Assembly: GCA_031761405.1 (NCBI GenBank)
Contig: JASEVX010000010.1
Location: forward strand, 15,433,800 to 15,497,799
Length of the DNA: 64,000 nucleotides
Source of the DNA: Serripes groenlandicus
Lineage: Eukaryota > Mollusca > Bivalvia > Cardiida > Cardiidae
Direction of reading: 5' to 3'
The notes under the pieces are model-generated. The model was not told the origin of the DNA and ran no database searches. It saw only the letters and a list, made by a program, of their open reading frames with translations. Below are positions 24,449 through 62,700 of this stretch, one piece after another (positions within the stretch are counted from its first letter, which is position 1; each line of letters opens with the position of its first letter). A program made the position numbers and the translations under genes.

Positions 24449-24555
24449 ACTTATACGTTCTTTCATAGAGAGTGCTCATAGTTTATCCTCTAAACGAATG
24501 ACGATGTTTTCAAAGTGGTCTGCTGCAGGTGAGAAGTATGTGGGAAAAGGGTTAA
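24449..24555. mobile_element. Family A MITE right part, ending at the GDAP1 stop codon
   Basis: Ends gtctgctgcaggtgagaag, gggaaaagggttaa. The terminal TTAA (24552-24555) contains the TAA stop of GDAP1 on the minus strand. The left half is missing, possibly replaced by the neighbouring SINE. Confidence 0.7.
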
Positions 24556-24895
24556 ATATTGCCGGGACCAGTTTTTCCCTTGTACATTTCACGCGCAGCA
24601 AGGACACCAAGGACAGCAACCCCAATAAGTAACCCAACTTTGGCGACTTTCAATGCTGCTATTTTAGCAACATACGTGGACGTAGAATCTGACGTTTCTA
24701 TGGCCTTTTTCATAGACGGTCTCGCCAACAAACGAGTGTAATATTCCTTTACAAGTGTTCGCTTTGTGCTGGAAAAGTAGCGTTCGTCAATGCCTAGCAC
24801 GTAAAGTCTGTATATTAGCACAGCGGCTGTTATATCGACGGCTGTAAACGTTTTACCCATCAGCCAAACAGCATCGTCTCCGGAACCGGAAGTGT
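24552..24895 (-). CDS. GDAP1: GDAP1 last exon
   Basis: Acceptor 'ctttctattttag'; joins phase 1 to give Asp. Encodes the C-terminal GST helices and the tail anchor. The stop TAA is inside a TTAA that is the boundary of a family A MITE. Confidence 0.93.
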
Positions 24896-39800: not shown

Positions 39801-42800
39801 TGTACTTGCTTAAACAAAGCAGACGGCATTTATTCGGCTGTTTACGAAAATAATTCAAGTTCAGAATATAAACCAAATACTGAGTTCATCATCAACAATT
39901 TCTCAGTATGCTCTACACAGCTTTCAATTGTCGATTGCTGCAGATGCTTCAAACTTCGTCTGTATGTGGGAAAGGGTTAATATCACTGACGACGATACAA
40001 GGAGTAGGAAATCAGCGGGATAAGGGTAACATAAACACGTGAGCCGTTCCGCGAGAAAACCAACCTGCTGGTACTTGCATAATGTGTCGATCCAGATCAG
40101 CGCAGGCTAATCCGGGCAGACACATTCCGTTTTCAGGGGGATTGAGGTATAGAGTAATGATTCCTGAAACAGAAAATCCACAGGAAGCGAAAAGTGTATG
40201 TCCGGGTTAGCCTGCGCGGCATGCTTAGGCTGATCCGGGTCGATACAATGTTTGTTTTTCTCGTGGGACGGCTCATGTTGAGTTAGAAGGCAACAGGATA
40301 GAGCATGGTCAGACGGCGTAGAGCAGACGGCTAGCCTGGCTCTAAACTGGTGGCACAGGGTTCACAAAATCGGTCCATCCGAAAACGGTAAATCAAGTTT
40401 TAAACACTTAACTGTTCGTGTTTAACACATACATGAGTCGACCTGAGTACAGAAGGTTTACCCTAAGGGGGGGGGGGGGGGGGGGGGGGGGTATCGTCGA
40501 ATGGGCTCAGGTACAGGCATACACCAATCATGGCGGCGCCCCCTGGACATGGTGAAGCAACCAACCAACTGTAGATACAACACGTGTGTGGACCAACCGG
40601 CTAACATTTCAAACTTTGAAAGTAGGTTGCTTCATTACTAATGAGCCATCCCGCGAGAAAACCAACATTGTGGTCTTTGCGTGAAGTATCGACCCGGATT
40701 AGCCTAAGCATGCCGCGCAGGCTTACCCGGATAGACACTTTTAGCCTCCTGTGGATTTTCTGTTTTAGGAACCATTACTATATACCTCTATCCCTCTGAG
40801 ACGGAATGTGTCGGCCCGGATCAGTCTGCACGGACTGCGCAGGCTGATCTGGGTCGATACATTACGCAGAGGTCATATGTTCGTTTTCTCGCAGGACGGC
40901 TCATTTATGTATTGCTTCCAATAATCAAGTTGTAATGGTCCACTTACTTTAGAGTTTGCGAAAGATATATCGGTATATAAGGGGAGCTGACCAATCTAGT
41001 CGCCATTGTTGGTTCATGCCAGACGTACCTTTGATTGACTGTTCTAATCGGTTCTCTATCGTATCGAAGACTTTCTCCAGGTCGTCCAAGACTTTTGACA
41101 TCGCTTCCTCGTTCACCACTACGGCCAGTCGCTCCTCTGAGGTTTTAATCTTCGCGGTCATTTCCGCCTGACTCTCCTTGGGCAACTTCTTCTGCGCTGC
41201 TTTCATACCGTCTATCATGCCCTGCAGTCTTTTAACTGTTTAAAAAAATGGAGACTTTTGTATCACTGAGTTTAGAAAGAAAATGGCAAAGATTGTATCC
41301 CTTTCCTACGCTTTCTGACACCTCTACCGTCAGACGACATTAGAAAAGAAGTGGTAAAAGTAGAAATTGTTATATTCGATAATTATGCTTTCATTTATAG
41401 AGCTTTCCAACGTTTTTGCCGAGACGGTATCAAATTCGTCTACTGCAGATTTTTTTGTATGAAGGAAAGGTTTTTTTGTATGAAGGAACCTATGCTTTTC
41501 ATTCAAATCTGATAGACCTTGATCAGGGTCCATATTGACTAACCATTCTAAATTGCTTCTAGTTATAAAACTAGCAAAATTATCATAATTAGATGGATAC
41601 AATATGTCGTATTGACTAACTATGTTTATAACAATAACAGGTCTGTATTTGAGCCGCGTCTAGCGATGTTGGCACTAAAGGCAATCGCGTACAGAGAAGA
41701 CTCGGGGTGCATCCGCACAGTCTTACCAGGGTCTTCATCGTCCGCATATAGGTCATATATACCTAAATTGACCGTCGGGGAAAGAAACTTGAAGTGAATC
41801 CCCACAAGTTCTATGTCAATATAGTTTAAAAATGATGTCATAGGCTATACACCTAATTGGATGATACATTTTGTATTGATTGGGAATGCAGAGCTGTAGA
41901 TAAAGGGCATTTCTTCTAAAATCCTTATCTAACACTTAAATCCTATGTTGTGGGTACTCAAAAGAATCGTCTTAGTCAGACGATGCTTTTGAGTACCCAC
42001 AACATAGGCTTTGGTTAAGTAGTAAAGATGATATTGTGGGGGAAAGACCACTTTTCCTTATCTAGTGAATGCGTGTTTGCACAGGCTTACACCAATCTCC
42101 GATGTTCGGATGGGCAACTGGACCAAGTGCGGTAAACGTATTCGCTTTAGAGCCGACATGTCGATAGTTCGAATGTTGAATATATAGATGTACATACAAT
42201 GATACATATTGTGGAAAATAATTAATAGCGTACAAGCACATAAAACAATCGGTCCAATGCACGCGAAATGAGGTAGACTCGGTACCAGAATGCTCGTATA
42301 ATCAATTTTAGCTATGTACACAAACCAACGCATATTCACGAAGGAACCGTGGGGACATTTGTTTGTTTGTAATATTGGGGTTTTACGCCGTTCTCGACAT
42401 TATTTCAGTTGTATCACGGCGATAGTTCACTTGTTCATCATCTCTGTGCCAGGGAATTCCAACTTAACCGTTGCGCCGCGACTGGGGATCGAACCCGGGT
42501 CGACCGGTTCCTAATCCCCGACGCTAACCACTCGGCCATGGCGGGTTCAAACCGTTTGATAAACTTTCGAGAGCAATGGACTGATTGTCTGCGCTTTACA
42601 TCAGTCAATACATTTTCAAAATAAATGTTATTTTGTCCTCACCTGCGCCAGCTTTGTTCATCATCTTCGACACAACTTTAGGAAGACGCAATTCATTTGT
42701 ACAGAACTGGCGATTGGCCAAAATGCCGTATGAGATATGGTCAATTGGTACCCGATGTAACAATTGCCGTAATTCACGTACGTCCTGTCCTATGGGCGTT

Positions 42801-44951
42801 GATTCGTCAGGCGCCAGTCTGGGACCTTAAAATGTAAAAAGATATTATCTCAGGGGTATTTAATGGTGGCGGTTGTTACTATTGCTCTTTTGACGGTCAG
42901 TAGTGCTTCCGTTAAAACTTTGCGACCTCAATTTTACCAACTACAGTAGATTCGCAGATAGTCTGGTTCCCGACTTCCTATGATATTACATAGTTATAAG
43001 GGGAAGGAACTCCAGACTAGTTCGCAGAGTGTTGGTTGTTTATTTAATATGAACCCGTCCATGGGAAAAGGTACACGTCGGTCTGCAGAAGACGGCTTTT
43101 TGAAAACATAGTGACAAAAGAAGAAATTGCTCAAAACGAGCAATTTCTCCTTTTGCCACAATGTTTTTCACCACTTTAAGTCATGGGTTATCTATTCAAT
43201 TATAGAGATTTTCTATTTTGTTATTAAATATGTTCAAAGTCGTCTGCTGCAGAATTGTCGTTTGAAGGAAATGGTTAAAAGCTTCTGTCAACATGTGTAG
43301 AGTCTGCAACAGACGACTTCTGAAATCATGGTGGCGCCAATCAGAGATTAACCTGCTATTGACTAGGTATAGAGTAGATTGATTGATTGATTGTTTGGGG
43401 TTTAACGCCGTTTTTAACAATTTCTCAGTTATATCACGGCGGCCAGTTCACCTACTCATGCATGTCCTGGTTTTCTCACACCAGAACTCCACACAACAAT
43501 CTTCCCAAGCAACTGGCTGCTTTTCCACATAGACAGAGCCCATTGGTGGAAGACAAATGACGCATGTCGCATTGACTTTTGTCAATCGTCGGAAAGAAAG
43601 TTGGCCGAGCCGGGATTCGAACTCACAACCCCTGGATTGACAGCCCGCGTCGCTACCGACTGAGCTACCGGGGCTCGGCAGGTATAGAGTAGAAACACGC
43701 AATACAATTTTACTTTTTTAGAAAAAACAAATGCGTTGTTAACCTTGAATGAACTCTACACAAATCAAGACATCTCTTTGAACTTGAAAAGAACTTTCAG
43801 CAATGTGGAGCTACTACTCATAAGACAAATGAGCCGTCCCGCGAGAAAAACATTGCGGGCTCTGCGTAAAGTATGGACCCGGATCAGCCTAAGCATGACA
43901 CGCAGGCTGACCCGGATGGACACTTTTCGACTCCTGTGGATTTTCTGTTTCACGAATCATTACTCTATACCTCTATCCCCCTGAGACGGAATGTATCGGC
44001 CCGGATCAGTCTGCGCGGACAGCGCAGGCTGATCTGGGTCGATACATTACGCAGATGCCATAATGTTGGTTTTGTCTCGGAACGACTCAAAGGACGTTAG
44101 TTAATGCTGATATTGTAATGGTATTTAAACATCAACGTTTGCCGCATGTCTAAACAGGGACGAGTAAATACTCACAAATAGCATGTAAAAACAGAAATAC
44201 GAGTTAATGGCGCACAAACTTAAAACATTGGAAACATGAATCTATTTTCAAATGTATCATAGGTCAGATCGTGTACTTTAGTCAGATTGATGCAAAAAAC
44301 AACATAGATTGTGGCAAAAGTAGAAATTGCTCAACTTTCTCTTATAATTAACCTACTATGTGTTCAACTCTTTTCAATAATTCTACTTTCATTTTATATA
44401 AACTTTCCGTATCTTTACCCGGATCCTTTCAAAGTCGACTGCTGCAAAAGTGTTGTACAGTCCAACCTGTGGTTAAGGACCACCCATAGGAAGAGAACAA
44501 TCTGGTCTTTGTTCAAATGTGGTCATTAATTACAATTTATGCAGAAAATGAGTAATGTTAAAGTTTAAAGAGTGGTTGCTAAAGACAGGGAATTGCTAAA
44601 CAAATGTGGTCTTTAACACAGGTTCGGCTAAAAGTGTCTAATCCGAGTAAGCCTGCTTAGGCTGATCCGGATCGATACTTTACGCACAGTCTACAGTGTT
44701 GGGTTTCCTCGCATAGGTTCGGCTGTACGTGATAAAAGGTTACGATTCTCGGTTATACCTTCAGGGCAGTGTTGATCGAGGTAGTCAATGATTGCCTCTG
44801 AATCGGGCGTGAACTTTGACCCATGTTGTAACACAGGGACCTCTCCTTTAGGGTTCAGTTTCAGGTACCAATCCTCCTGTTGCTCTTGAGTCATTATGTT
44901 GACGATTCGTTCCGTAAAAGACACGCCTTTCTCCTGCAGCGTAAGGTACGC
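24552..44951 (-). CDS. GDAP1: GDAP1-like mitochondrial GST-family protein, 5' exon missing
   Basis: Four exons join in phase: 44951-44729, 42825-42643, 41235-41029, 24895-24552 (junction codons CGT, GTT, GAC), 318 residues plus stop. The first shows the GST N-terminal (thioredoxin-like) fold: AYLTLQEKGVSF, WYLKLNPKGEVPVL, SEAIIDYLDQHCP. The second gives RELRQLLHRVPIDHISYG, typical of GDAP1. The third is the Lys/Glu-rich helical loop plus VLDDLEKVFDTIENRL. The last has GDDAVWLMGKTFTAVDITAA (GST C-terminal signature) and a tail anchor KVGLLIGVAVLGVLAAREMY followed by basic residues. GDAP1 sits in the mitochondrial outer membrane and affects fission and redox balance; its human gene is mutated in Charcot-Marie-Tooth disease. 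Human GDAP1 has about 358 residues, with a first coding exon of about 39, so only that exon is missing here; it should lie in or beyond the N gap. The GDAP1L1 paralogue is a less likely alternative. The intron between the last two exons is 16 kb. Confidence 0.93.
25055..25650 (+). repeat. Dispersed repeat G, partner of 17550-18190
   Basis: Inverted with respect to the first copy; begins 'ttcggcgatagacgattaac' and ends 'agtgatcgccgtttatctt'. Contains a tRNA-unrelated insertion around 25370-25560 not present in the first copy. In the GDAP1 16-kb region upstream of the last exon. Confidence 0.72.
25708..25908. mobile_element. Family B MITE, left end lost
   Basis: 'aaaatccacaggaggcgaaa', 'gcatgcttaggctgatccgg' and the right end gttctcgttggacggctcat. 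Confidence 0.72.
25910..27440. other. GDAP1 intron, mostly unassigned
   Basis: 26285-26372 carries an antisense tRNA-like piece ('gaccgggaatcaaatcctag'). A 105-aa ORF at 26822-27139 (+) has hydrophobic stretches but no recognisable family, splice context or start context; not called. Confidence 0.45.
27460..27750. repeat. Mollusc-type dispersed repeat
   Basis: 'caaggaacatttcagagaaa' and the end 'gagcctttggctcaggtgat' (a small hairpin GAGCC/GGCTC) belong to the same kind of repeat as the 49.2-kb array. Confidence 0.5.
28530..29150. repeat. Diverged repeats with AAGGAACAT words
   Basis: 'caaggaacatttgtgcca', 'gaaggaacatttcggcgaaa', 'ccaaggaacaatagcgata', 'gcaaggaacatcattgttc' recur at about 145-bp spacing. 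No coding gene supported; ORFs here are shadows. Confidence 0.5.
29160..29560. other. AT-rich intron stretch
   Basis: Nothing recognised. Confidence 0.5.
29570..30165. repeat. About 145-bp diverged tandem repeat, four units
   Basis: Units start with 'ccttcaatttgacctagtga' or variants at 29593, 29730, 29877 and 30023; each continues 'tttttgaccc...gacccatgttcgaacttgac' and 'aaacattctgataaagtttc'. A related unit lies at 52975-53110. Confidence 0.85.
30165..31320. other. GDAP1 intron, no gene seen
   Basis: Only a family A fragment at 30622-30690 ('acattgtgaaaaaatgagaa' with 'cctttgccacgatgatttca'). Confidence 0.5.
31325..31612. repeat. 56-bp tandem repeat, five units
   Basis: Unit TTTATGGCTTTATGCACTAT followed by atgactgaccgaagaccggatctaccattgctatgc, starting at 31331, 31387, 31443, 31501 and 31557. 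Units are almost identical (one 2-bp insertion), so the array is young. Confidence 0.95.
32372..32551. mobile_element. Family A MITE, left-truncated
   Basis: Ends aaaaggtttaa; its terminal TTAA (32548-32551) is also the first TTAA of the next element. Confidence 0.7.
32548..32765. mobile_element. Family A MITE, complete, reverse type
   Basis: ttaaccctttccctcatacg at left and tgagggaaagggttaa at right, with TTAA on both sides. Left arm has the 'cagcagacgactttgaaca' word that is at the right end in the other orientation. Confidence 0.85.
32770..33000 (-). mobile_element. SINE remnant
   Basis: 'aacacggcgtttccagggta', 'ccaggactactggttcattt' and an antisense tRNA-like 'cggggatcaaatccgccac'. Confidence 0.55.
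33243..33689. mobile_element. Family A MITE split by a SINE
   Basis: Left half 33243-33338 and right half 33560-33689 make one element bounded by TTAA at 33243 and 33686; the SINE at 33339-33559 sits in the internal hairpin. Confidence 0.8.
33339..33559 (+). mobile_element. tRNA-derived SINE, well preserved
   Basis: A box tggtcgagtggttagcg, B box ggttcgatccc, unrelated body with 'cttgggcaaggcacatcttc', and tail 'gcggcgtaaaaccccaataa'. About 220 bp. Best copy for defining this SINE family. Confidence 0.88.
33970..34255 (+). mobile_element. LINE 3' end with (TTCTG)n tail
   Basis: 34005-34142 matches the reverse complement of 11975-12115. It ends 'caaatcaataaacttatg' followed by about five TTCTG units. 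Confidence 0.6.
34374..34603. mobile_element. Family A MITE, complete
   Basis: ataaccctttccatcatac to gaggaaaagggttaa. The hairpin tip reads gctcaaaacgtgc, so one stem pair is mismatched. Confidence 0.82.
34942..35295. mobile_element. Family A composite
   Basis: TTAA at both ends but contains two internal hairpins in a row (gcacaaaacgtgc near 35020; a worn one near 35165), joined at a 'gtcgtctttttaaaacgatg' junction: two elements merged. Confidence 0.78.
35447..35678. mobile_element. Family A MITE, complete
   Basis: ttaacccttgttcacaaac to cggaaagggttaa, hairpin tip gctcataataagc. Confidence 0.8.
36091..36486. mobile_element. Two family B MITEs in tandem
   Basis: The first (36091-36326) has the left end atgagccg and full body but lacks its right end; the second (36327-36486) has both ends (atgagccgtcccgcgagaa, gtggaacggctcat) but a body replaced by 'aaaatggttgtagtggctgc'. 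Confidence 0.75.
36500..37015. other. GDAP1 intron, nothing recognised
   Basis: AT-rich, no repeat or ORF of note. Confidence 0.5.
37018..37327. mobile_element. Family A MITE, worn and internally expanded
   Basis: Left end ttaatccttccccctggtac; hairpin 'gtggcaaaaggagaaatttc' with 'ctttctccttttgcctcaat' at 37240-37290; right end cgtctgcgttagagtgtggg. Confidence 0.6.
37327..37800. repeat. (ATT)n trinucleotide-rich tract
   Basis: About 470 bp of ATT/TTA/AAT units with occasional C. Long Asn/Ile ORFs on both strands here are artefacts. Confidence 0.95.
37841..38053 (+). CDS. Candidate 70-aa myristoylated His/Ser-rich small protein
   Basis: Not recognised from a known family. A single uninterrupted ORF. 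The start has a strong Kozak context (A at -3, G at +4). The protein begins MGACHSMKK: Gly2 with Ser6 fits the N-myristoylation pattern, and Cys4 could be palmitoylated. A Lys/Gly-rich stretch follows, then a DSHHSHHSHHSHHSHK repeat, a second GKGHGRRGS and a Lys-rich end. Expected to be very basic and to bind divalent metals if folded at the membrane; this is inference. It lies in the antisense direction inside the 16-kb GDAP1 intron, 40 bp after the ATT tract. The two other frames are also open across the repeat, which lowers confidence; the start and myristoylation motif argue for this frame. No promoter recognised. Confidence 0.45.
   Translation: MGACHSMKKIVKCGGDKPGKGHGRKGSADSHHSHHSHHSHHSHKGKGHGRRGSKDSDDSHHGKGKKKGHD
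38420..38560 (+). mobile_element. Possible LINE tail (TTTCG)n
   Basis: 'gattatgcaatacaacttt' followed by three TTTCG units resembles the pentamer-tailed LINE ends at 557 and 34234. No upstream coding part recognised. Confidence 0.35.
38831..39145. mobile_element. CAGGGGCGTAGCT-ended element, inverted orientation
   Basis: Ends CGGGGGCGTAGCT and AGCTACGCCCCTG, flanked by GTTAT on both sides. Family B body inside, in the opposite orientation to the copy at 10097. Confidence 0.83.
39318..39505 (-). mobile_element. SINE body fragment
   Basis: 'attacggcgaccagttcaca', 'tggttcctggcttacatgcg', 'agccagttggtgg' are decayed matches of the 43378 SINE. Confidence 0.5.
39640..39982. mobile_element. Two family A fragments
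   Basis: 39640-39725 ('gagcaatttcttcattttcc' to 'ccatataagggaaaga') and 39900-39982 ('ctcagtatgctctacacagc' to gtgggaaagggttaa). Confidence 0.55.
40041..40276. mobile_element. Family B MITE
   Basis: gagccgttccgcgagaaaac to ctcgtgggacggctcat; right body 'ccgggttagcctgcgcggc'. Confidence 0.8.
40467..40491. repeat. G25 homopolymer
   Basis: Twenty-five consecutive G on the + strand; exact length is likely unreliable in an assembly. Confidence 0.9.
40641..40904. mobile_element. Family B MITE, complete
   Basis: atgagccatcccgcgagaaa to ctcgcaggacggctcat, with the full body including 'gagacggaatgtgtcggccc'. It ends about 125 bp before the GDAP1 exon 3 donor. Confidence 0.85.
41029..41235 (-). CDS. 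GDAP1: GDAP1 exon (helical loop)
   Basis: Acceptor 'tttttttaaacag', donor AAAG|GTACGT. Encodes KRLQGMIDGMKAAQKKL through NRLEQSIK. Phase 1 in and out. Confidence 0.92.
41290..41475. mobile_element. Family A MITE, worn
   Basis: 'tatccctttcctacgctttc', 'gtggtaaaagtagaaattgt', 'cgtctactgcagattttttt' and 'gtatgaaggaaagg', the last word duplicated. Confidence 0.6.
41942..42008. mobile_element. 67-bp foldback element
   Basis: Arms CCTATGTTGTGGGTACTCAA and the reverse at 41987-42008, with a smaller nested pair ATCGTCT/AGACGAT in the middle. Related copies or arms at 56953-56975, 63119-63169, 9655 and 52265. Confidence 0.85.
42372..42546 (-). mobile_element. tRNA-derived SINE
   Basis: Antisense: 'ggggttttacgccgttctcg' tail at left, B-box complement 'ggggatcgaacccgggtcg', A-box complement 'cgctaaccactcggccatgg'. 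Lies 97 bp downstream of the GDAP1 exon 42643-42825 (in its intron). Confidence 0.82.
42643..42825 (-). CDS. GDAP1: GDAP1 exon (middle)
   Basis: Acceptor 'tttacattttaag', donor GCAG|GTGAGG. Encodes RPRLAPDESTP to KVVSKMMNKAGA; phase 1 in and out. An ORF at 41626-41841 on the same strand is not an exon: this exon joins 41235 directly and in frame. Confidence 0.92.
43053..43277. mobile_element. Family A MITE
   Basis: Left end worn (catgggaaaaggtacacg); perfect hairpin tip gctcaaaacgagc; right end gaaggaaatggttaa. Confidence 0.78.
43378..43678 (-). mobile_element. Long tRNA-derived SINE, full length
   Basis: About 300 bp. On the minus strand: tRNA head with gtagctcagtcggtagcg (A box) and gttcgaatccc (B box), the body 'gtctatgtggaaaagcagcc', 'ggcgttaaaccccaaacaat' and a (CAAT)n tail. 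This differs from the 33339 family in body and length. Confidence 0.87.
43829..44089. mobile_element. Family B MITE, complete
   Basis: atgagccgtcccgcgagaaa to gtctcggaacgactcaa; body carries 'aagcatgacacgcaggctga' and 'cagcgcaggctgatctgggt'. Confidence 0.82.
44262..44455. mobile_element. Family A MITE, left-truncated
   Basis: 'gattgtggcaaaagtagaaa' to 'agtcgactgctgcaaaagtg'; its right end is cut by the TACAGT-type MITE that follows. Confidence 0.6.
44456..44632. mobile_element. TACAGT-type MITE
   Basis: Ends tacagtccaacctgtggtta and taacacaggttcggct, with an inner word 'gtggtcattaattacaa' shared with 19685-19700. Confidence 0.65.
44640..44728. mobile_element. Family B end fragment touching a GDAP1 exon
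   Basis: 'gcttaggctgatccggatcg', 'cagtctacagtgttgggttt', 'cctcgcataggttcggctg' end one base pair from the donor of the exon 44729-44951. Confidence 0.6.
44729..44951 (-). CDS. GDAP1: GDAP1 exon (GST N-terminal part)
   Basis: Acceptor 'taactacctattacag', donor TTTATCAC|GTACAG; starts at phase 0 with AYLTLQEKG, ends at phase 1. It corresponds to the second coding exon of vertebrate GDAP1 (VRLVIAEKAL). Its acceptor and first 27 bases are the end member of the 64-bp array. Confidence 0.92.
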
Positions 44952-45560
44952 CTGTAATAGGTAGTTAAGCAATTATTGATAAACATACGCCTTTCTCATG
45001 CAGCATTAGACACGCCTGTAATAGGAAGTTAAGCATGTATTGATAAACATACGCCTTTCTCCTGCAGCGTAAGGTACGCCTGTAATATGAAGTTAAGCAT
45101 GGATTGATAAACATAAGCCTTCTCCTGCAGCGTAAGGTGCGTCTTTAATAGGTAGTTAAGCAATTATTGATAAACATACGCCTTTCTCATGCAGCGTAAG
45201 GTACGCCTGTAATAGGTAGTTAAGCAATTATTGATAAACATACGCCTTTCTCATGCAGCGTAAGGTACGCCTGTAATAGGTAGTTAAGCAATTATTGATC
45301 AACATACGCCTTTCACCTTCAGTGTTAGGTGTTCCTGTAATAGGAAGTTAAGCATTTATTGATAAACATACGCCTTTCTCCTTCAGTGTTAGGTGTTCCT
45401 GTAATAGGAAGTTAAGCATTTATTGATAAACATACGCATTTCTCCTTCAGTGTTATGTGTTCCTGTAATAGGAAGTTAAGCAATTATTGATAAACATACG
45501 CCTTTCTCCTTCAGCGTAAGGTACGCCTGTAATAGGCAGTTAAGCAATTATTGATAAACA
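44951..45560. repeat. 64-bp tandem array of a GDAP1 splice acceptor and exon start
   Basis: Ten units start (as CCTGTAATAG or a variant) at 44951, 45015, 45079, 45142, 45206, 45270, 45334, 45398, 45462 and 45526. On the minus strand each reads branchpoint-like CTTAAC, 'tacctattacag', 27 nt of coding type, then GTATG. The coding part is AYLTLQEKG in the exon itself; other units give ACLMLHEKG, AYLTLQEKG, AYLTLHEKG (twice), EHLTLKVKG, EHLTLKEKG, EHITLKEKC and AYLTLKEKG. The unit at 45142 has lost one base and its splice sites. The array is followed within 30 bp by the N gap. Confidence 0.93.
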
Positions 45561-45587
45561 TGCTCAACTTTCACATTTCTTTAAATG

Positions 45588-45787
45588 NNNNNNNNNNNNN
45601 NNNNNNNNNNNNNNNNNNNNNNNNNNNNNNNNNNNNNNNNNNNNNNNNNNNNNNNNNNNNNNNNNNNNNNNNNNNNNNNNNNNNNNNNNNNNNNNNNNNN
45701 NNNNNNNNNNNNNNNNNNNNNNNNNNNNNNNNNNNNNNNNNNNNNNNNNNNNNNNNNNNNNNNNNNNNNNNNNNNNNNNNNNNNNNN
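45588..45787. other. Assembly gap (200 N)
   Basis: Exactly 200 N, a common placeholder for a gap of unknown size. ORFs through it are meaningless. The GDAP1 first coding exon or more array units may be hidden here. Confidence 0.98.
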
Positions 45788-46150
45788 ACTTTCATTTCCC
45801 GTAGTCTGGACTATATGGTTTCAAGGTTGCCGGTTACATATGTTCTGTATGGGGAAAGGGTTTAATCAGACGCACAAAACACTGATTGCATTTTTAGTAG
45901 AATTGCATATCAAGGCTAGCATAGTTTACATGCAGCTTCTTTTCAACACGTGTAATAATTACTTTAGGGTTGGTTTTCCTTGAGAACCGATCAATTGTTG
46001 AATTAACATCGAAAAACTTACAAGGTTATAAGTGCATGTCTTATTTATATCTACAGTTGTCATTTCTTCCAAATGCCAGCTTAATGCAAGTTTACTATAC
46101 TCTTTCACTTGTTGTCAGCATTGTTCGCGCTTAGGATTTCAAGGACTTGC

Positions 46151-46346
46151 ACTAACCCTTTTCGACCATAGCAAAAGGATAAATTGCTAATCAACAGCAA
46201 TTCCTCCAATTTTCCACAATGTTTTCAAATCTATTTAATTATTATACATGTATTTAATTATTTTACTTTACAAGATTTTTAAATATTACTGCCTAGATGT
46301 CCTCATAGTCGTCCGCTGCAGATTTGGTCTATGTGGGAAAGGGTTA
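46151..46346. mobile_element. Family A MITE
   Basis: ctaacccttttcgacc to gtgggaaagggtta; hairpin tip worn (gctaatcaacagc). Confidence 0.7.
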
Positions 46347-46405
46347 CGACTGATGAACCGGTCTAAAGGCAAACTGATCAGAAGTTACCGGTAATGCACC
46401 ATAGC

Positions 46406-46437
46406 TGGGACAACTAATACGTATTAGTCGTCCCAGA
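46406..46437. mobile_element. 32-bp palindrome with 7-bp target duplication
   Basis: CTGGGACAACTAATAC and GTATTAGTCGTCCCAG are complementary with one mismatch, flanked on both sides by ACCATAG (46399-46405, 46438-46444). Confidence 0.8.
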
Positions 46438-46538
46438 CCATAGCAATGTCAAAATATAACGGAACCTGTTGATAGTGGCGTAAACAATCAAACACACGAT
46501 CCGTAAGGGATTTTTGCATCACCAAACACGCTTGATGA

Positions 46539-46759
46539 TTAACCCTTTCCCTCATAGAGACGTTTTTTAACGCCTCTGCAGCAGATGGCTTTTGAAAACA
46601 TGGCGATAAAAGAATAAATTGCTCAAACCGAGCAATTTCTCATTTTGTCACTATGATTTCCTTTCTATTTTAAAATAATTGTACTTTCATTTAAAGGGAG
46701 TTGCCAATTTTTGTTTGGTTAAGTCTGCTGCAGTTTTGTTGCATATGGGAGAGGGTTAA
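46539..46759. mobile_element. Family A MITE, complete
   Basis: TTAA at both ends; left ccctttccctcatagagacg, right gcatatgggagaggg; hairpin tip gctcaaaccgagc. Confidence 0.84.
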
Positions 46760-46778
46760 ACATCCACAGCTTTCGGTT

Positions 46779-47004
46779 ATAACTCTTTTCCCACATATAA
46801 CAAATCTGCAGCAGACGATTTTGAAAACATCTAAGGGGAAATATGGAAAGTCCCTGTAAATGAAAGTTAGTATTGAAAAGAGGAGAAAACATTTTGGCAA
46901 AAGGTTTAAATTGCCCAAAAGACCAATTTCTCTTTTTGCCACAATGTTTTCAAAAGGTCATTTGTGCCAGGTGCAAGAAAGTGTGTCTGCATGTGGGAAA
47001 GATG
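46779..47004. mobile_element. Family A MITE, reverse type
   Basis: 'taactcttttcccacatata' to 'gcatgtgggaaagatg'; its right end runs into the 34-bp array. Confidence 0.72.
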
Positions 47005-47650
47005 TTGATCGTGTGGGATATTATTAATGAGAAAGATGTTGATCGTGTGGGAAATCATTAATGAGAAAGATGTTGATTGTGTGGTAAATCGTTAATGAGA
47101 AAGATGTTGATTGTGTGGTAAATCGTTAATGAGAAAGATGTTGATTGTGTGGTAAATCAATAATAAGAAAGATGTTGATCTTGTGGTAAATCATTATTGA
47201 GAAAGATGTTGATCTTGTGGGAAATCGTTAATGAGAAAGATGTTGATTGTGTGGGAAATCATTATTGAGAAAGATGTTGATTGTGTGGTAAATCGTTAAT
47301 GAGAAAGATGTTGATTGTGTGGGAAATCATTAATAAGAAAGATGTTGATCTTGTGGGAAATCATTATTGAGAAAGATGTTGATCTTGTGGGAAATCGTTA
47401 ATGAGAAAGATGTTGATTGTGTCAAATCGTTAATGAGAAAGATGTTGATTGTGTGGGAAATCATTAATAAGAAAGATGTTGATTGTGTGGTAAATCATAA
47501 ATGAGAAAGATGTTGATTGTGTGGTAAATCATTAATGAGAATTAAGTTGATTTTGTGGGAAATCATTAATGAGAAAGATGTTGATCTTGTGGGAAATCGT
47601 TAAAAAGAAAACTGGTGATTGTGTGGTAAATCGTTAAAGAGAACGGTGTT
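46995..47650. repeat. 34-bp tandem array, about 19 units
   Basis: Unit GAGAAAGATGTTGATTGTGT followed by ggtaaatcgttaat. Variants at gattgtg/gatcttg and gtaaatc/gggaaatc alternate in blocks of more than one unit, so higher-order duplication occurred. Confidence 0.94.
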
Positions 47651-47786
47651 GATCGTATGGGGGAAATTGTTAGTGATATTGAAATACAACCCGTATATAG
47701 ACATCAAGACAGATCTTTTAAACCACTGGCTTCTTCTACGTTCTAATTAGTATTATAATTATATTACAAGCGTTATGAGAATTGAC

Positions 47787-47860
47787 ACACAGTAGCTCAA
47801 TCGGTAAGGAAAGTGCCACCGATCCAGAGGTCGCGAGTTTAAATCTTAGCTCCGACCTTC
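47787..47860 (+). mobile_element. Decayed tRNA-like SINE head
   Basis: 'agtagctcaatcggtaagga' and 'ggtcgcgagtttaaatctta' fit A and B box positions, but the B box is damaged. A SINE body follows at 47972-48060. Confidence 0.5.
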
Positions 47861-48247
47861 ATTCTTTATGATGATCAACAAGAGTCACCGAGACTAGCAC
47901 AGTTCATCTTACAACTATGGGTTAAAAGTATATAAGGGAAGAAAGCCACTGGAAGAACGCTGTGTAGAAATGATTGTTTTGGCGTTTAAAGCCACTTTCG
48001 CCATTTTTTCCGGTTATATCACAGCGTTTCGTGGTTAAGTTACCATTACTACTGGTCAATAAATCATAGTCAGTCGTTTTTCATGACTATCAATTGACAG
48101 TTTTTCAACATTTACTGCCAAAATAGTTTAGAACTACTTATTACTACTTTGTTGTCACTATTAGCAATATTTGCAGAAGTTTCAACATTTCAAACGTTCG
48201 ATCTCCATCTGGAGTTCAGCACCTTTAACTCCAATTAGCATAATCAC

Positions 48248-48479
48248 TTAACCTTTCCCTCATATAAACGCTTTTGGACACCTCTGCAGCAGACGGCTTT
48301 TTTTTGAAAACATAGTGACAAAAGAAGAAATTGCACAAAACGTGCAATTTCTCCTTTTGCCACAATGTTTTCCACTTTTAGTCATAGTTTATCCATTCAA
48401 TTATGGAGATTTTCTACATTTTGACAAAATACATTCAAAGTCGTCTGCTGCAGAATTGTCATATGAGGGAAATGGTTAA
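48248..48479. mobile_element. Family A MITE, complete
   Basis: Hairpin tip gcacaaaacgtgc (paired A-T version); ends ttaacctttccctcata and tgagggaaatggttaa. Confidence 0.83.
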
Positions 48480-49164
48480 TGAATATTTTCTCTGGTTCTT
48501 AGAATTGACTACAGATACCTACAACTGTAACATACCAAACAGAAAACGTCAACAAAGTTTAATTAACATTAGAATATATTATAATGTATATGTTTTACAG
48601 CATTAAATCTCATTTATATACATAAACCAGGTACAACAAATGTTCAGCAGATGACTGAAAACATTGAGGTAAACATACCGAAAATCTCTTTAAATTTAAA
48701 TCATGATTGTTAAATAGCAGAGCATTTTTTCCCTTTGCCAAAATGTTTTCGTAAGTAACAGTCTGCTGTTAATCTGTGCGTAAAAATACCTCTACTCGAT
48801 AAGGGTTAAATAATTATCTAAGAAACATCTAATTCAACATATTTCATTATAAATCAAACATTTTGGCAACTTGGATGTTATCTGTGATTACTCGTCCACA
48901 TGAGATTGCAATAAGATTATTTTTTATTCTCTCCAGAAATACATATTTTAGAGTTGTTTGCTTTGAAAAAATGGAGAGGAAAATTTCTCGAAATTAGTAT
49001 GTATAATTTTGAAAATATTGATGGATACAGAGTCAAATGTTGTCCACATTAAGTAAAGGGTTAGTTTCAGATCTAACAGAAATTCATATATTCTGTATTT
49101 GATGAATATCATAAAAATTTACAAACACTTTTATCTTTTATGAATTATGGACACATGAAGAACA

Positions 49165-50175
49165 AGAGGCCCAAGAGGGCCAGTATCGCTCCACTGCCAT
49201 TAGGCAAAAATTAAATCTCCAAACAGCCCCGTCCCCTGGCAGCCATATTTTAAGACCAATCAACATGGCTTGGTGGAATGTGATAGAGAGTCACACAAGG
49301 AACGTTTCTACAAAATAATTTGAAAATCGGCCAGATATTTTCGAAGGAGAAGATTTTTTAAGTTTTCACTATAGCCATATAGTGCAAAACAGCCCTAGCC
49401 CCTGGCGACCATGTTTTTCGACCAATCAACATTTCTTAAAGGAATCTAATAGAGGGTCACACTAGGAACATTTCTACAAAAAATCAGCCTCACTATAGCC
49501 ATATAAGGCAAAATAGCCCCGCCCTCTGGTGGCCATGTTTTTTGACCAATCAATATGGCTTGAAGGAATCTGATAGAGGGTCACCCAAGGAACATTTCTA
49601 CAAAATTATTTGAATCAACAGGTCTTGAAGGAATCTGATAAAGATATATTATTTGAAAATCGGCTTGACACTATCAGAGGAGAAGATTTTTTAAGTTCTC
49701 ACTATAGCCATATAAGGCAAAATAGCCCCGCCCTCTGGCGGCCATGTTTTTTGACCAATCAATATGGCTTGAAGGAATCTGATAGTGGGTCACCCAAGGA
49801 ACATTTCTACAATTTTTTTGATTCGACAGGTCTTGAAGGAATCTGATAAGATATATAATTTGAAAATCAGTCCAACACTTTCAGAGGAGAATTTTTTTTT
49901 TTAAGTTTTCACTATAGCCATAAAAGGCAAAATAGCCCCGCCCCCCTGGCGGTCATAGTTTTCGACCAATCAACATGGCTGGAAGGAATCTGATAGAGGG
50001 TCACCCTAGGAACATGTCTTCAAAATTATTTGAAAATCGGCAAAGACACTTTTGTCTGAGAAGATTTTTTTAAGTTTTCACTATAGCCATGTAAGGCAAA
50101 ATAGGAATCTGATAGAGCATCACCCATGGAACAATTCTACACAATTATTTGAAAATCGGAAGAATTTTACAGTTT
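49165..50175. repeat. Diverged 125-210 bp tandem repeat, five units
   Basis: Starts 'aagaggcccaagagggccag'. Units carry 'caaaatagccccgccctctg', 'ggccatgttttttgaccaat', 'gaaggaatctgatagagggt' and 'aggaacatttctacaaaatt', beginning near 49203, 49383, 49507, 49716 and 49926. Any ORF inside is by chance. Confidence 0.85.
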
Positions 50176-50930
50176 ATTCTTTCGTTGCCATGGAAACTAT
50201 AATTTTGCTTTCAGCCAGTGGAGCTAAAAATGAAATAAATAAAACCATAGTAAACCATAATGATATGTTAACAAAGAGGAAAGCAGCATTAACCTGTGCA
50301 TATAATTATGTCTGTCAGGTCAGATTAGTGACCTATCATTTTGTTGAAAGACACATCTGCTCTGGCCTTTGAAAGCAGATAAATTTCTTTTCTAAATATG
50401 TTTTCAATTTTATTTTTGACAATATCATAACAGTAAATTACTATATTTCAAAATATATATGTACTCCAGCTGTTTTAAACTTTTGCAGATGTTTTGTCAT
50501 AACCTATAATGTATCAATTTGATGAGTTCACACAGAGCGGTTGTAACTACATCTTGTAAAATTCTTGGATACAACAGTTTTGCACTGAGCCAAAAATATA
50601 CTTTTGCATAGGTGATTGGAGTATTGTGCTCAAGAGATGACCAATTGTAAGGCATTTGGGACCAGTGTAGGTTTATACCAACCTGCACAGTAAAACAGTC
50701 TGATCTAAACTGTATAGTTTGCCAATTAGAAACAGAAAATGTCACAAAAGCAGTTGAAAAACAGTATTAATCATTTTCCAAAGGCAGAAACTTTTTGATT
50801 GACAAGTTTTGTAAAAATTGTGTCAAAAGGAGAAATATGCTAATGCTCATCTTTTGCCATAATTTTTTCAATTCATTTAAATAATTATGCTTCCATTTAT
50901 AAAGATTTTCCATATTTTTTACGCTATTAT
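50175..50930. other. No gene seen
   Basis: Only a family A fragment around 50800-50910 ('ttgtgtcaaaaggagaaata'). Confidence 0.5.
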
Positions 50931-50933
50931 GTT

Positions 50934-51163
50934 TTAACCCATTACTTCACACAGATGACATTTGACGCCTGCCATTGAAGACGACTTTTGAAAACATTGC
51001 AATAAAATGTGAAATTGCTCAAAATGAGCAATTTCACCTTTTATTGCAATATTTTCAATTCTTTATCAATACAAATCTTTCAGTTTTCTAGATTGTTGAA
51101 ATTGTTCGTCTGATGATTGTAAAGCAGACGACCTTTGAAAAGTCATGTGAAGTAATGGGTTAA
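50934..51163. mobile_element. Family A relative (subfamily A2)
   Basis: TTAA-bounded, but ends CCCATTACTTCACA and TGTGAAGTAATGGG instead of CCCTTTCCC; same architecture with a very long internal hairpin ('aaaatgtgaaattgctcaaa' against 'gagcaatttcaccttttatt'). Confidence 0.82.
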
Positions 51164-51716
51164 AAGCCAACTGCTGCAGATTCTCTCTATGTGGTAAATG
51201 GTTAATTGGAATCTTTCAGCGCTAATGACAAAATTGAGGTTTTTGCAAACAATACAGATCCATACGAGTCAGCTCGTAACGAGCTGTCTCACCTGAAATC
51301 AGCATTGTTTGTTCTTTAGCTATCAAATTATTCCAAAACTCTTATTGTTATATGAAAAATGGAAACGCCTGATTTTTAACATGGATGAGTTTACTTTAAA
51401 CAGTTCGGCGCTGAAAGAGTTTTTTAAAAATTGTCACAGCTACCCTACGGTTGATTCTCCCTTCAAACAAACAAGTTACAGAGCATTGTAGGCAACGCAG
51501 AATTCCCCTTCTCTTTCAGGGGCAAAATCACAGACTCAGAAACTGTGACCTAGACCCTCATGTTAACAGAAAATTAAATAACATGCATAATCTACTTATT
51601 GTCCTCTATGCACACACCAAGTTTCCTAGATCTATAGTATACATACATATGTATCTATTTTTTTTCTCCTCCAGAGTAATTGCATAAACCACCTAATCAG
51701 ACAGACTGAGGGAGAG

Positions 51717-51984
51717 TTAACCCTTTCCCTCATATAGACGCTTTCTAACGCCTCTGCAGCAGACGGCTTTTTGAAAACATAGTCTGACACCTTTGCAGCA
51801 GATGACAGTTGAAAACAATGTGACAAAAGAAGAAATTGCTCAAAACAAGCAATTTCTCCTTTTGCAACGATGTTTTCCACTTTTAGTCATAGGTTATCCA
51901 TTCAATTAAAGAGATATTCTATTTTTTGACAAAATATGTTCGAAGTCGTCTGCTGCAGAATTGTCGTATGAGGGAAAGGGTTAA
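51717..51984. mobile_element. Family A MITE with an internal duplication
   Basis: The 'ctgacacctttgcagcagat' left-arm segment appears twice. TTAA at both ends. Confidence 0.82.
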
Positions 51985-52078
51985 CCTATATTCCCCTCCT
52001 TACGGGGACAGGTAAGGTAAGGGATAATGATAACTTGGCACTGACTAGATTTAGGGATATTTTCTGACACATAAAATC

Positions 52079-52209
52079 TCATAATGTTGCTAATATTCTT
52101 GTGTAAGAAAACACCGTAGCAAGGATGGTTTGTCCAAGTCCCCAGAGTAAGGCATTAAATCTGCTCATCTCCACGTCAGATGCCCGGTAAACGCCAGCTA
52201 CAGCTGCAC
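52079..52209 (-). CDS. TMEM170A: TMEM170A exon 3
   Basis: Acceptor 'ttatttgattttccag'; encodes AAVAGVYRA to RILATL, stop TGA at 52079-52081. Confidence 0.92.
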
Positions 52210-55200
52210 CTGGAAAATCAAATAATATACATATCAGGAGTTGACTAGAAAAAGGGGAAGTCTTACCAAGACAATTCTTTTGAGAATCCAAAACACAGGG
52301 TTTGAGTGCCTTATAAGGATTTTAGAATATGCTCAGTCAGTTGCAATGCGGGCTGTCAATCGAGGGGTTGTGAGTTCAACATTCTTTCCGACATTTGACA
52401 AGTCATTGTGACAAGCAGTCTATGTGGAAAAGCAGCCAGTTGCTTGGAAAGAATGCTGTATGAAGTTCTGGAGTAGGTCAACTGGCTGCCGTGATATGAC
52501 TGATTTTTTTTTTTGAAAACAGCGTTAAACCCCAATCAATCAATCAATCGAATATATGGAAAAAGCCCCTTATCTAGAGCTCTGTATCAAGATTTTTGCT
52601 TCTCATTCAACTTAGGTTTTGACATGAAAATAATTAAAATGACCTGCCAGGACTCATATTCAACTTGAAGAGAAATATTCAACAATTAACCCTTTCCCTC
52701 ATATAGACGCTTTCTGACGCCTCTGCAGCAGACGTTTTTTTTAAAACATAGTGACAAAAGAAGAAAGATTTTCTATGTTTTGACAAAATACGTCTGCTGC
52801 AGAATTGTCGTATGAGGGAAAGGGTTAAAAAATGTTTCCACTAGAGGTCCCACAAAAGCACAATGTTATTCTTAAGTTTGACTTTTCAAAAATGACCCAT
52901 ATTAGATTTTAGAAAACAATCATTCTGACAAATATTTATTAAAATAGAGTCATAAATCATGTGCCTTGTAGATTGTCCATTAAACTTTTCTTAAATTTAA
53001 CCTTGTGACCTAGTTTTTGACTCAACATGAATATCCATAATTCATTCTTAGCCTAACTATCATTAACTTGATTACGACAAACATTCTGAATAAGATTCAT
53101 AAAGATTGGATAAAAAAATGTGACATCTACATTGTCCAAAAGCAAATTATTGACAACAAACGGATGACATGTCACAGAAACAGGGCAAACACAATAAAGC
53201 ATCTTGAGCACTTCATGCTAACATCCCCCAAGATGATTTCAAAGTTGTCTGCTGCAGATTTGGTGCATGCCAATGTTTGAAAGGGTAGTAGTAATCCATT
53301 TGGCAGTTTTAACCCTTTCCCACATACACCAAATCAACAGCAGACGATTTTGATACCATCTAGGCAAAAACATGAAAAATCCCGGAAAAAAAAGATATAA
53401 TTAATACTGAAAAAAGTTGAAAACATTGTGGCAAAAGGAGAATTTGCTTGTTTTGAGCAATTTCTTCTTTTGTCACATTGTTTTCAACTGTCATCTGCTG
53501 CAAAGGCGTCAGAAAATGTCTATATATTATATGGGAAAGAGTTTAGCAGACAACTTTTTAAATAAGTTATAAAAAGTCAGAAAATACTGCTTTTAATTCT
53601 TTCTATAATACTTCTACTCTTTTGCAATTAATGTCTTTTGTCAATCTAGATTTAAATTCTTCCTTTCTTAAGGACAAAAAAATAACGGCATATCAGGAAT
53701 GGGCTTTACTTTGTTGAAATGATAAAGAATGAATGATACCCACTGCTTACCACCCCTACAGTAAGGGGAGCCAACACACCCATAGCAAATATCAAAGCAG
53801 GGATCCAGCGTCCAATTTTGTGTTTCCTGAGACGACATATTCCAACAGAAGCAGCAATGATATGTACAAACAGCGATGAAAACAAGGCCCACAGAAATAC
53901 TTGGTACCACATCTCTGAAATATTAAACAACAAAACCTCTTTATATTCTATACTTTCAACCCTTTCCCACATAAAGACCCTTAGTCTGACACCTCTGCAG
54001 CATGAGTACAATAAGCTGACAGCGCTCACGTTAATGGACGTATTGGGCGTTTTTACGCCCGAAAATCGATCCCGTACGCCCAAAATTGACAAGGGAGACG
54101 TCCAAGTACGTCCAGGAATTAAGGGTATACGCCGACAATCAAAACACAGGACGTATATATGTCCACTAGAAATTGTGTGTAATTATCTAAAGACACTGTG
54201 TATTGTGTTTTGTGTCATCTGCAGCATGAGTACAATAAGCAATTACTTCTTTTGCCACTATGTGTTCAAGTTCAACTTTTCAACTTTTATTCCATAATTG
54301 TTCTTTCATTTATTAACCCTTTCCCTCACATAGATGCTTTCCGACGCCTCTGCAGCAGACGGCTTTTTAAAAACAGTGACAAAAGAAGAAATTGCTCAAA
54401 ACAAGCAATTTCTCCTTTTGCCACAATGTTTTCCACTTTTAGTCATAGGTTATCCATTCAATTAAAGAGATTTTCTATATTTTGACAAAATATGTTCAAA
54501 GTCGTCTGCTGCAGAATTGTCGTATGAGGGAAAGGGTTAAGAGTTTCTATACATTTAACTCAATGTTTTCAAAGGCATCTGTTGCATATTTGTCTTAAAC
54601 TCTTATGTAGGAAAGGGTAAACTTAAACTAAGTATTGACAAATATCCGCAGGGGCTTAGCTCCCTTTAGGCACTGTAGGCACGTGCCTACACATTTTTTC
54701 TAAAAATGCTCCAAAATGCAGGTGCGGCGATACACATCTGCGTAATGTATTGACCAGATCAGTCTGCGCTGTCCGCGCAGACTGATCCGGCCGACACATT
54801 CCGTCTAAGGGGGGATAGATAGAGTAGTGATTCCTGAAACAGAAAATTCACAGGAGGCGAAAAGTGTATAACTGGGTACGCCTGTGTGGCATGCTTAGGC
54901 TGATTCGGCTCGATACTTTACGCAGAGTCCACAATGTTGATTTTCTCACGAGACGGCCTACACATTGATTATTGCCAGGCTACGCTCCTGATCCATAACC
55001 CTTTCCTATCCCACAGACAACAAGTCTGCAGCTTACAATCTTGAAAACATCTACGCAAAAACAAATGGAAAATCTTTAAAACTTATTGCATATTTTAATA
55101 ATTTCAACTTTTTAGTAACTACAAGAAATTGCACATTTAGCTGACAATGTCTGCGACTCACAAATATTGAAGACATTGCATATGCCTCAAAATGCATCTG

Positions 55201-59700: not shown

Positions 59701-62700
59701 CCCTGTATTGTTAAGCCTACCAGCTTCTTCTACTAGCCCAGCAACAAGTTCACCAGTCTCTTCTACTACCACAACAACAAGCTTACCAACTTCCTCTACT
59801 AGCCCAGCAACATGTTCACCAGTCTCTTCTACTAGCCCGGAAACAAGCTTACCAGTCTCTTCTACTAGCCTGGCAACAAGCTCACAAGCTTCTTCTACTA
59901 GCCTGGCAACAAGCTCACCAGCTTCTTCTACTAGCCTGGCAACAAGCTCACCAGCCTCTTCTTCTTCTAAAATTACAGTAACAAGGGTGTATGATTTTGC
60001 AGGCGAAGCAGTCAAGTAAGTTGTAAAAAATACAGGAATTCTTTTAACCCTTTTCCTGATCAAAATGACTTAACCCTTTCCCTCATACGACAATTCTGCA
60101 GCAGACGACTTTGAACATATTTTGTCAAAACATAGAAAATCTCCATAATTGAATGGATAAACCTATTACAAAAAGTGGAAAACATTGTGGCAAAAGGAGA
60201 AATTGCATGTTTTGTGCAATTTCTTCTTTTGTCACTGTCTTCAAAAGGCTGTTTGCTGCAGAGGCATCAGAAAGCGTCTATATGAGGGAAAGGGTTAATA
60301 TAACATTGCAAAAAAAAAAATGAGCAAATTCTCATTTTCACACTATGTTTTTTACTTATTATAAAACCCGGCCGGGTAGCTCAATTGGTAGCGTATCTGA
60401 CTCGTGATCTGGAGGTCACGGGTTCGATACCCGGTTGCGGCGACATTCTTTCGGGCGATTTTTCCATCGCCTCTCACCTCTGATCTATGTGAGAAAGTAG
60501 TCAGTGGCTTCGAAAGAATGTTGTGTAAGTACTGGTGTAGGAAAGCCAGGAACACATGGGTAGGTGCACTGACCGCCGTGATATGACCAAAGCTGTTGAA
60601 AGCGGCGTTAAACTCCAAACAAACAAAACTTATTATAAAAGGATAGGTCCCGTTTTTCCAGGCATAACATGCTTATCTGCAGATATCTTTCGAAAATTAT
60701 TTGCTCTTACAATAATATATAAGACAAATGGTAAATATTTATTTACTACCTATGGACTTTTTATTTAGAGCAATATTGTTGTAACAAACACGAATAATTC
60801 AAGCCAAGCCTAGAGTCGAAGCCAGGACAGTCTAAATCATAACAAGTACTACAGCAATTTGTAAATGCACTCGAAAAGTAGCAAAGCACACATTAGAGGG
60901 GTGTGTGGGAATTTTTCCTCACAACTTTTATTTAACCCTTTCCAACATAAAACAAGTCTGACGAAGATGACTTTATTAAAAAACACCCTTTCCAACCTGC
61001 AGACACATTTTGACGCATCTGCAGCATTGTGGCAAAAGGAGAAATTGCTCTTTATTAACGAGAATTTTCTCATCTTTGCCTAGATATTTTCAAAGTAATC
61101 TGCAGCAGATTTGTTCTATGTGCAAAAGTGTTGAAATTATGTGCATAATATACATGTATTTTCTAAAGAAACCAAGATCCTTAAGCCTTCTCACATTAAA
61201 AGATTTTTATTAGCGGCAGATGACTTTTGAAAACATTGTGGTAAAAGGAGAAATAATGAGCAATTTCTCCTTTTGCCACAAAGATTTCAATTATATATCT
61301 ATATCATCTTTATAGAGATTTAACATATTTTAACATAAAATAACTAAATTGAAGATGATGATAATGATGATAATGTATCAACATAATATTTTGGTTCTGA
61401 AATTTAAAACAATTGGACAATTGTACAAGCAATACTATGTTTGGTAATTTAAAGCGAACTTTCATTGCAGAGTCACAAAAGAGCTAGATGTCAATTCTAA
61501 AGAAGGTAAAGCTGAATTAAAAAGACAACAAGAGGAAAAAACTCAAGAAGATTCACCAGCCCTTAAAACTAGCGCAGTTGGTACCAGGTTTGTTTTTAAT
61601 ATTTTTACAGTCCTTTAACCGTTTTGTATGGGGATGGGGGTATGAACAGAATTTCAGTTATAGCATGGTCACCATCATTATTCTTGGGCACTCCATGACC
61701 ACCATAAGCAGGTATTGAGCCTGGTATACCAGGTCTCACATCCCCCATGCTAACTACTTTGACATGGCAGATTCCTCTTTCTTCCATAGAACAAACTCTA
61801 AACCTTTCCCGAATACAACAAATCTGCAGCAGACGACTTTGAAAATATCTAGACAAAAGCACAGAAAATCCCCTTAAATGAAAGAGCAATAATTGAAAAG
61901 GGTTGAAGACATGGTGACAAAAGGGGAAATTGCTCGTTTTGAGCAATTTCTTCTTTTGTTGCCATAATTTCAGTCGTCTGCTGCAGAGGCATCAGAAAGC
62001 GTCTATATCAGGGAAAGGGTTAAAGAAAGTGTCTTTTAGAATTGTAATACAGGTATTGATACTTAAAAAATGGATTGTTGTGAAATGATGTGTCATTGTT
62101 AGTACAGTTCCTGTTTTAAACCAATGGCAATGCATTGCATAGGAGATATAGTATCGGTGCCATGCTTGTGTGTGTGTCTGTCTGTGTACATCATGGTATA
62201 AGCATGATTAAGTGAAAACCAAAAGACTGTGGATAATCAAACATGGCATACTTGTTCCACATTATAAGAGGATTGTGTCCTATTGATTTTCAAGGTCACA
62301 TGTCAAGGTCGTTAGAGGCAATTATTAAAAGCATGATTAAGATAAAAAAAAAAAGGACCACTGAGGATAATCAAACTTGACAAAGTTGTTCCTCATACTG
62401 AAAAGATGTGTCTTATTGATTCTTTGGGTCATGGTCATTGGTGGAAATTATCAAAAAAAATTGTAAGCATGTTTCAGAGATAACCATACCAACAAGGTTT
62501 ATCAAACTTGGCCTACTTGTTCGTCACTATTAGAAACTGCCTTATTGATGTGCAGGGTAAGAGATCAAAGGTCAAGGTCACTGGAAGCAATTATCAAAAA
62601 AAAAATGTTTTCATAATTGAGAGAAATCTTTACCACTGAGGATAATTATACCTGGTATAATTGTTTCCCATTATGAGAAGATGTCCTCTATTAATTTTCA

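Follow-up and report, generated by a model that had tools for sequence, protein, structure and literature searches.

A 64-bp tandem array across the exon 2 splice acceptor of GDAP1 in the bivalve Serripes groenlandicus

The GDAP1 locus and the array at exon 2

The DNA analysed here is a 64,000-nucleotide stretch of the Serripes groenlandicus genome (assembly GCA_031761405.1, contig JASEVX010000010.1, positions 15,433,800 to 15,497,799), referred to below as the window and numbered from its first letter. Its minus strand carries a GDAP1 gene, four exons of which could be joined with consistent phases, and the acceptor of exon 2 is overlaid by a tandem array of 64-bp units. The GDAP1 protein resides in the outer membrane of mitochondria. 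The features of the gene and its upstream side are as follows.

44759..44951, minus strand: GDAP1 exon 2, 193 nt, the first 27 nt being the exon part of array unit 10; donor GAAG|GTATAA
42643..42825, minus strand: GDAP1 exon 3, 183 nt, acceptor TTTTAAG
41029..41235, minus strand: GDAP1 exon 4, 207 nt
24552..24895, minus strand: last GDAP1 exon, including the stop codon
45588..45787, no strand: assembly gap of 200 N, starting 26 bp beyond the array

Of two in-phase AGs tried for the last exon, the first was adopted as its acceptor. The best PDB match of the joined 308-residue protein was GDAP1 (8exz_A, E 1.1e-34, residues 3-280 to 42-313). A Pfam scan, run on a protein with rougher exon joins, placed GST N and C domains above their cut-offs (five of the seven families listed). 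NCBIfam returned five bacterial GST-type matches, every one far under its cut-off, and for exon 2 by itself LigF (1.2e-10) was a marginally better match than GDAP1 (2.7e-9). With both GST domains predicted and the best match extending over most of the protein, the gene carrying the array is GDAP1. The start of exon 2 falls at about human residue 40 when extrapolated from the 8exz_A alignment, and we take human GDAP1 exon 1 to end at residue 39. A first reading of the window, made from the letters and referred to as the sequence-only reading, had assigned the gene, the exon boundary and its phase 0 in the same way, and the PDB match and exon joins bear it out. No convincing candidate for exon 1 was seen by eye among ATG frames from 45535 to 52078, nor by motif as far as 64000; it may lie inside the gap at 45588-45787 or further upstream.

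Tandem Repeats Finder gave the array a period of 64, 10.0 copies, 90% matches, 0% indels and a score of 942. A pattern of the 37-nt intron part, allowing up to 3 mismatches, matched the window 9 times, always inside the array, and did not match any of 100 shuffled sequences. Each unit consists of a 37-nt intron tail and a 27-nt exon start (26 nt in unit 7), and unit 10 is the genuine 3' splice site together with the first 27 nt of exon 2. The sequence-only reading had counted ten repeat units; that number stands, and since one of the ten is the real exon, the extra units are nine.

44923..45561, minus strand: tandem array, 64 bp x 10, across the exon 2 acceptor of GDAP1 (Tandem Repeats Finder)
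45500..45526, minus strand: unit 1 exon part, AYLTLKEKG
45436..45462, minus strand: unit 2 exon part, EHITLKEKC
45372..45398, minus strand: unit 3 exon part, EHLTLKEKG
45308..45334, minus strand: unit 4 exon part, EHLTLKVKG
45244..45270, minus strand: unit 5 exon part, AYLTLHEKG
45180..45206, minus strand: unit 6 exon part, AYLTLHEKG
45117..45142, minus strand: unit 7 exon part, 26 nt; acceptor TTAAAG, joint TTATG lacking a donor
45053..45079, minus strand: unit 8 exon part, identical to the genuine exon start
45053..45142, minus strand: units 7 and 8 joined, a 90-nt stop-free in-frame stretch up to the intact unit 8 donor (THLTLQEKAYVYQSMLNFILQAYLTLQEKG)
44989..45015, minus strand: unit 9 exon part, ACLMLHEKG
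44952..44988, minus strand: genuine intron tail of unit 10, with unit 9's GTATG joint, the branch-like motif CTTAAC and the acceptor TACAG

The motifs reported earlier for most units were recovered when the units were counted. Branch-like CTTAAC is present in all ten, the TACAG acceptor in nine of ten (unit 7 reads TTAAAG), and AG is kept in 9/9 extra units. A 27-nt exon part free of stops in the frame of the exon is found in 9/10 units, the 26 nt of unit 7 being likewise stop-free. The donor-like GTATG stands at eight of the nine joints, and the genuine exon, said to lack it, indeed reads GTGTC at that place and so has no donor there. Units differ from one another at 1 to 13 of 64 positions (the gap being uncounted), which corresponds to identities of 80-98%. 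Partial homogenisation is evident: neighbouring units 3 and 4, and likewise 5 and 6, differ at 1 position, as against 13 for units 2 and 9.

Origin of the duplication joint

At the joint, the exon sequence ..GAGAAAGGCGT (..GGCGT) runs into the intron sequence ATGTTTATC.., and this GCGTATG anatomy is the same at 8/9 joints. The genuine exon continues as GGCGTGTC, and the intron at the outer edge of the array reads GAGCATGTTTATC. The exon continuation GGCGTGTC and the outer edge, GAGCATG, together account for GCGTATG; the donor-like GTATG therefore arose from joining the two. It needs no special origin, being the duplication joint itself. The open frame of the units is inherited from the exon, and chance need supply only a GT at the joint and the divisibility of 27 by 3.

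As read from these edges, a first tandem duplication joined exon 2 after base 29 to intron position -35, copying the branch-like site, the acceptor and the exon start and creating the GTATG donor by chance. Unequal exchange or slippage may then have raised the number of 64-bp units to ten. The exon parts subsequently diverged at the near-neutral proportions described below, within the limits of the counts. Among nine exon boundaries tested, one, the exon 2 acceptor, is repeated elsewhere in the window (58/60 matches); the best matches of the other eight were 30-33 of 60. A search for copies in viral contigs gave 0. Besides the GDAP1 array, the window holds eight tandem arrays of more than 200 bp (overlapping rows merged by eye), and the region is thus rich in tandem repeats.

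Splice-signal strength and spacing

Splice sites were scored with weight matrices of mammalian type, which were not fitted to this animal. Array acceptors scored 5.10 in units 2, 3, 4 and 9, 3.58 in unit 1, 2.78 in units 5 and 6, 2.72 in unit 8 and -3.58 in unit 7, the lowest of the ten; the genuine exon 2 acceptor equals units 5 and 6. Acceptors of exon 3, exon 4 and the last exon scored 0.41, -0.39 and 3.38. The array donor scored -1.27 (unit 2, -2.65; unit 7, none), close to the -1.55 of the genuine exon 2 donor and far below the donors of exons 3 and 4 (8.88 and 5.10). That genuine exon 2 donor, at 44759 (GAAG|GTATAA), is itself low-scoring.

The 37-nt spacing of adjacent units given by the sequence-only reading agrees with the unit alignment, and 23 nt separate each donor from the next branch-like A. 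Splicing between neighbours at such short spacing is unlikely, so neighbouring units are not expected to be joined. The in-frame insertion of nine residues that was proposed for a used unit holds for eight of the nine, at a phase 0 boundary.

Tests for selection on the units

Changes among the units were counted on most-parsimonious trees (score 29, rooted at unit 10). This score was reached by 41 of 150 random-addition replicates, the first six of which all gave the same division: 18 events (17 substitutions and a deletion) in the 27 positions of the exon part, against 11 in the 37 positions of the intron part. The 17 exon-part substitutions comprise 5 synonymous steps (two CTT to CTA changes, one ACG to ACA, and single steps inside GCG to GAA and TAC to TGT) and 12 non-synonymous ones. 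As 5.0 synonymous changes are expected under neutrality, purifying selection on the encoded residues was not detected in this small sample (5/17). The absence of stops is uninformative, the chance of none arising in 17 events being 0.378. Indels numbered 1 in 9 x 27 exon positions and 0 in 9 x 37 intron positions (P 0.42).

Retention of splicing competence was compared with neutral simulations, run on two trees with equal branch counts in one run and on one in the final run; the final run dropped the array-edge column -36 and thus contained 28 events rather than 29. Neutral runs left on average 5.39-5.65 of nine units competent when one indel was included and 5.82 without it. Under a strict definition (frame, AG and the unit's own GT), 8/9 units are competent, a count reached by 17-20% of neutral runs with the indel and 24% without. 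A simple argument for selection from conservation of the frame was rejected, because the intron part, too, lacks indels and 8/9 is reached in 17-20% of neutral runs (24% without the indel).

The residue and frame pattern had been put forward as a sign of use, and this was for the most part not supported: the synonymous share is neutral, the frame is inherited and indels are rare in both parts of the unit. Changes at neutral proportions are half of what the sequence-only reading had itself named as counting against use. From the synonymous share, the indel counts and the simulations together, it follows that the residues give no sign of constraint and that retained competence gives a borderline sign only.

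Unit 7

In unit 7 the acceptor no longer has its C (TTAAAG), the donor no longer has its G, and the exon part is shorter by one A. Because that one base was lost together with the donor, an open path leads in frame past the unit 7 joint for 63 nt into unit 8 and on to the intact donor there (63 + 27 = 90 nt). Read-through of the other eight units meets a stop, at codon 12 in unit 4 and at codon 17 in the other seven. In the frame of unit 7, the spacers of units such as 5 and 6 would read CAA TAA, the one before unit 8 reads CAA TCC and the one before unit 9 reads CAA TAC, the contrast lying in columns -23 and -22. The new frame is therefore open because the usual TAA of the spacer reads TCC at this place. 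Nor need the unit 7 acceptor be dead, since the genuine exon 3 acceptor likewise has A at -3. Whether the frame is lost in one unit of nine, as had been stated, thus depends on the route taken: it is if unit 7 splices at its own joint, and it is not if unit 7 is read through to unit 8.

A clustering of changes near units 7 and 8 (P 0.029) was set aside, the comparison having been chosen post hoc. The conjunction of a lost donor with a rescued path had P 0.002-0.004 and never arose in runs without an indel; this condition too was chosen post hoc. Unit 7 is the best argument for use of the copies, but one found after the fact.

Relation to known boundary repeats

In two reports, tandem repeats across intron-exon boundaries are described for the amphioxus genes BflGb6, BflGb9, Adh3, TnC and PGBD5, and those of the globin, Adh3 and TnC genes are called mirages (PMC3087553, PMC3902484). 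They report somatic instability for the Adh3 mirage and undisturbed regular splicing for the Adh3, globin and TnC mirages; for BflGb6, one haplotype with 6 units and another with 3 are given, with a unit identity of 81-100% (PMC3087553). As far as these accounts go, the likeness to the GDAP1 array is close. An intron-exon boundary is duplicated, in BflGb6 also the 3' end of an intron with the start of an exon; AG and GT are kept in many but not all units; the 80-98% identity of GDAP1 units is near that of BflGb6; and Adh3 unit lengths of 10-72 bp span the 64 found here. The GDAP1 array differs from them in its host gene, its nine extra copies and its 27-nt, phase-0 exon part. Since both a repeat across an exon-intron boundary and AG/GT in many units were found, the array fits, by analogy, the known mirage kind. 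Among the literature matches listed, as judged by titles and the beginnings of abstracts, there was no exon-boundary minisatellite from a mollusc or from GDAP1.

Two other systems are related. In a potato RdRp gene, tandem duplication spanning a 3' splice site is reported to have produced a new intron together with an additional piece of exon, with support from 106 RNA reads (PMC4974935). There, as in GDAP1, acceptor, branch site and exon start come from the parental copy and the donor is newly recruited; the potato gene has one extra copy and uses a GTAAG donor supplied by the exon upstream, whereas GDAP1 has nine and a joint-made GTATG, and is known from DNA alone. For human segmental duplications, internal tandem repeats located at exon-intron boundaries are reported to be able to give rise to new introns and alternative splicing (PMC2812944). 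They resemble the GDAP1 array in being minisatellites at boundaries; they were found by paralog comparison, with transcripts available, whereas the array is a single locus seen in DNA only. In tandem clusters of mutually exclusive exons, exon-like copies are spaced too tightly to be spliced together. The copies in GDAP1 are similarly close, but they repeat no more of the exon than its first 27 nt, and the genuine exon is still needed.

Interpretation

In our judgement, the array is probably a young exon-boundary minisatellite of the mirage kind, in which the genuine acceptor is dominant and leaky use of in-frame microexons is possible. Splicing would normally use the acceptor adjoining the long exon 2, and array units, if used, would mostly yield in-frame inserts of nine residues rather than frame breaks. 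Leaky use would be tolerated because 27 is divisible by 3 and GT stands at 8/9 joints. Because lancelet (amphioxus) mirages are reported to leave splicing intact, the array would for the most part be a curious repeat with a small chance of use. Several observations weigh against this. Five array acceptors (units 1, 2, 3, 4 and 9; 3.58-5.10) outscore the genuine one at 2.78. When read-through to a later donor is allowed, 9/9 units keep AG and a stop-free in-frame path to a GT, an outcome seen in 4.4-5.8% of neutral runs with one indel and 8.8% without. Change is also sparser in the intron part than in the exon part (P 0.038; Fisher 0.035), and this could reflect constraint on splice signals. 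The contrast has P 0.034 without the array-edge column. As a case of faster change in the exon part it is weakened once the four CpG columns are dropped, to 0.098, or to 0.060 if the edge column is dropped with them. A deficit of changes in core splice signals, tried as a further argument, was set aside (2 of 10, one-sided P 0.077).

One rival is a working cassette of alternative exons, whose units would be included singly or alternating to give GDAP1 isoforms with a variable insert. We regard such a cassette as improbable, and with it the corresponding insert of 9 residues (30 for units 7 and 8) into helix 1 of the N-terminal GST domain. It would account for the splice motifs retained in nearly every unit, for the read-through competence of 9/9 (P 0.044-0.058, or 0.088 without the indel) and for the loss of the unit 7 donor paired with a one-base loss that leaves the new frame open, and a single-copy precedent supported by RNA is reported for the potato RdRp gene (PMC4974935). 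Set against it are amino-acid changes at neutral proportions, strict competence of 8/9 at P 0.17-0.20 (0.24 without the indel), donors that are weak beside those of exons 3 and 4, and the fact that the donor-lost condition (P 0.002-0.004) was picked after the data had been seen. A living cassette of in-frame exons selected as harmless or useful, with units 7 and 8 forming a single 90-nt exon, is more doubtful still. Were the cassette real, the first helix of the thioredoxin-like domain would vary among GDAP1 isoforms by between 9 and 30 or more residues, and minisatellite mutation would supply their variety. Alternatively, the array acceptors might compete with the genuine one as decoys: when the joint donor is missed, the spacer would be retained, a stop met and less GDAP1 made. 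Eight of nine units do meet a stop past the joint and most array acceptors score well, but such use is a prediction only, unit 7 has no stop, and among competing acceptors the one with the longer exon is usually favoured; we hold this poison splicing to be very unlikely. Least likely of all is an assembly artefact, with the number or order of units wrong beside the 200-N gap. The gap begins 26 bp past the array, and an amphioxus draft is described as having assembled a globin mirage aberrantly (PMC3087553). The outer flank is nevertheless a different sequence before the gap is reached, and because no two units are identical across their 64 positions (differences 1-13), the array is not a single unit multiplied by the assembler.

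Minisatellites at exon boundaries amount to natural experiments on the origin of new introns and exons, and the GDAP1 array lets one ask whether cells ignore, tolerate or use copies of an acceptor. If the copies are used, minisatellite instability would be linked to GDAP1 isoform variety.

Other features of the window

One further gene lies upstream of GDAP1 on the same strand.

53751-53914 and 52079-52209, minus strand: TMEM170-like gene (Pfam PF10190, E 4.8e-20)

Between the gap and this gene is a 34-bp tandem array of about 20 copies (46997-47661). A 33-bp tandem array at 59719-59962 lies within an open frame of 117 codons; this frame is rich in the residues Ser, Thr, Ala and Pro and had no Pfam match. 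Intron 3 of GDAP1 contains a tRNA-like stretch with a GGGTTCGATCC box (42440-42545, minus strand), in which ARAGORN found no tRNA and which, going by its motif, is perhaps a SINE. The same intron holds a near-perfect inverted repeat at 41938-42012, with 35-nt arms that are 94% complementary and 5 nt between them.

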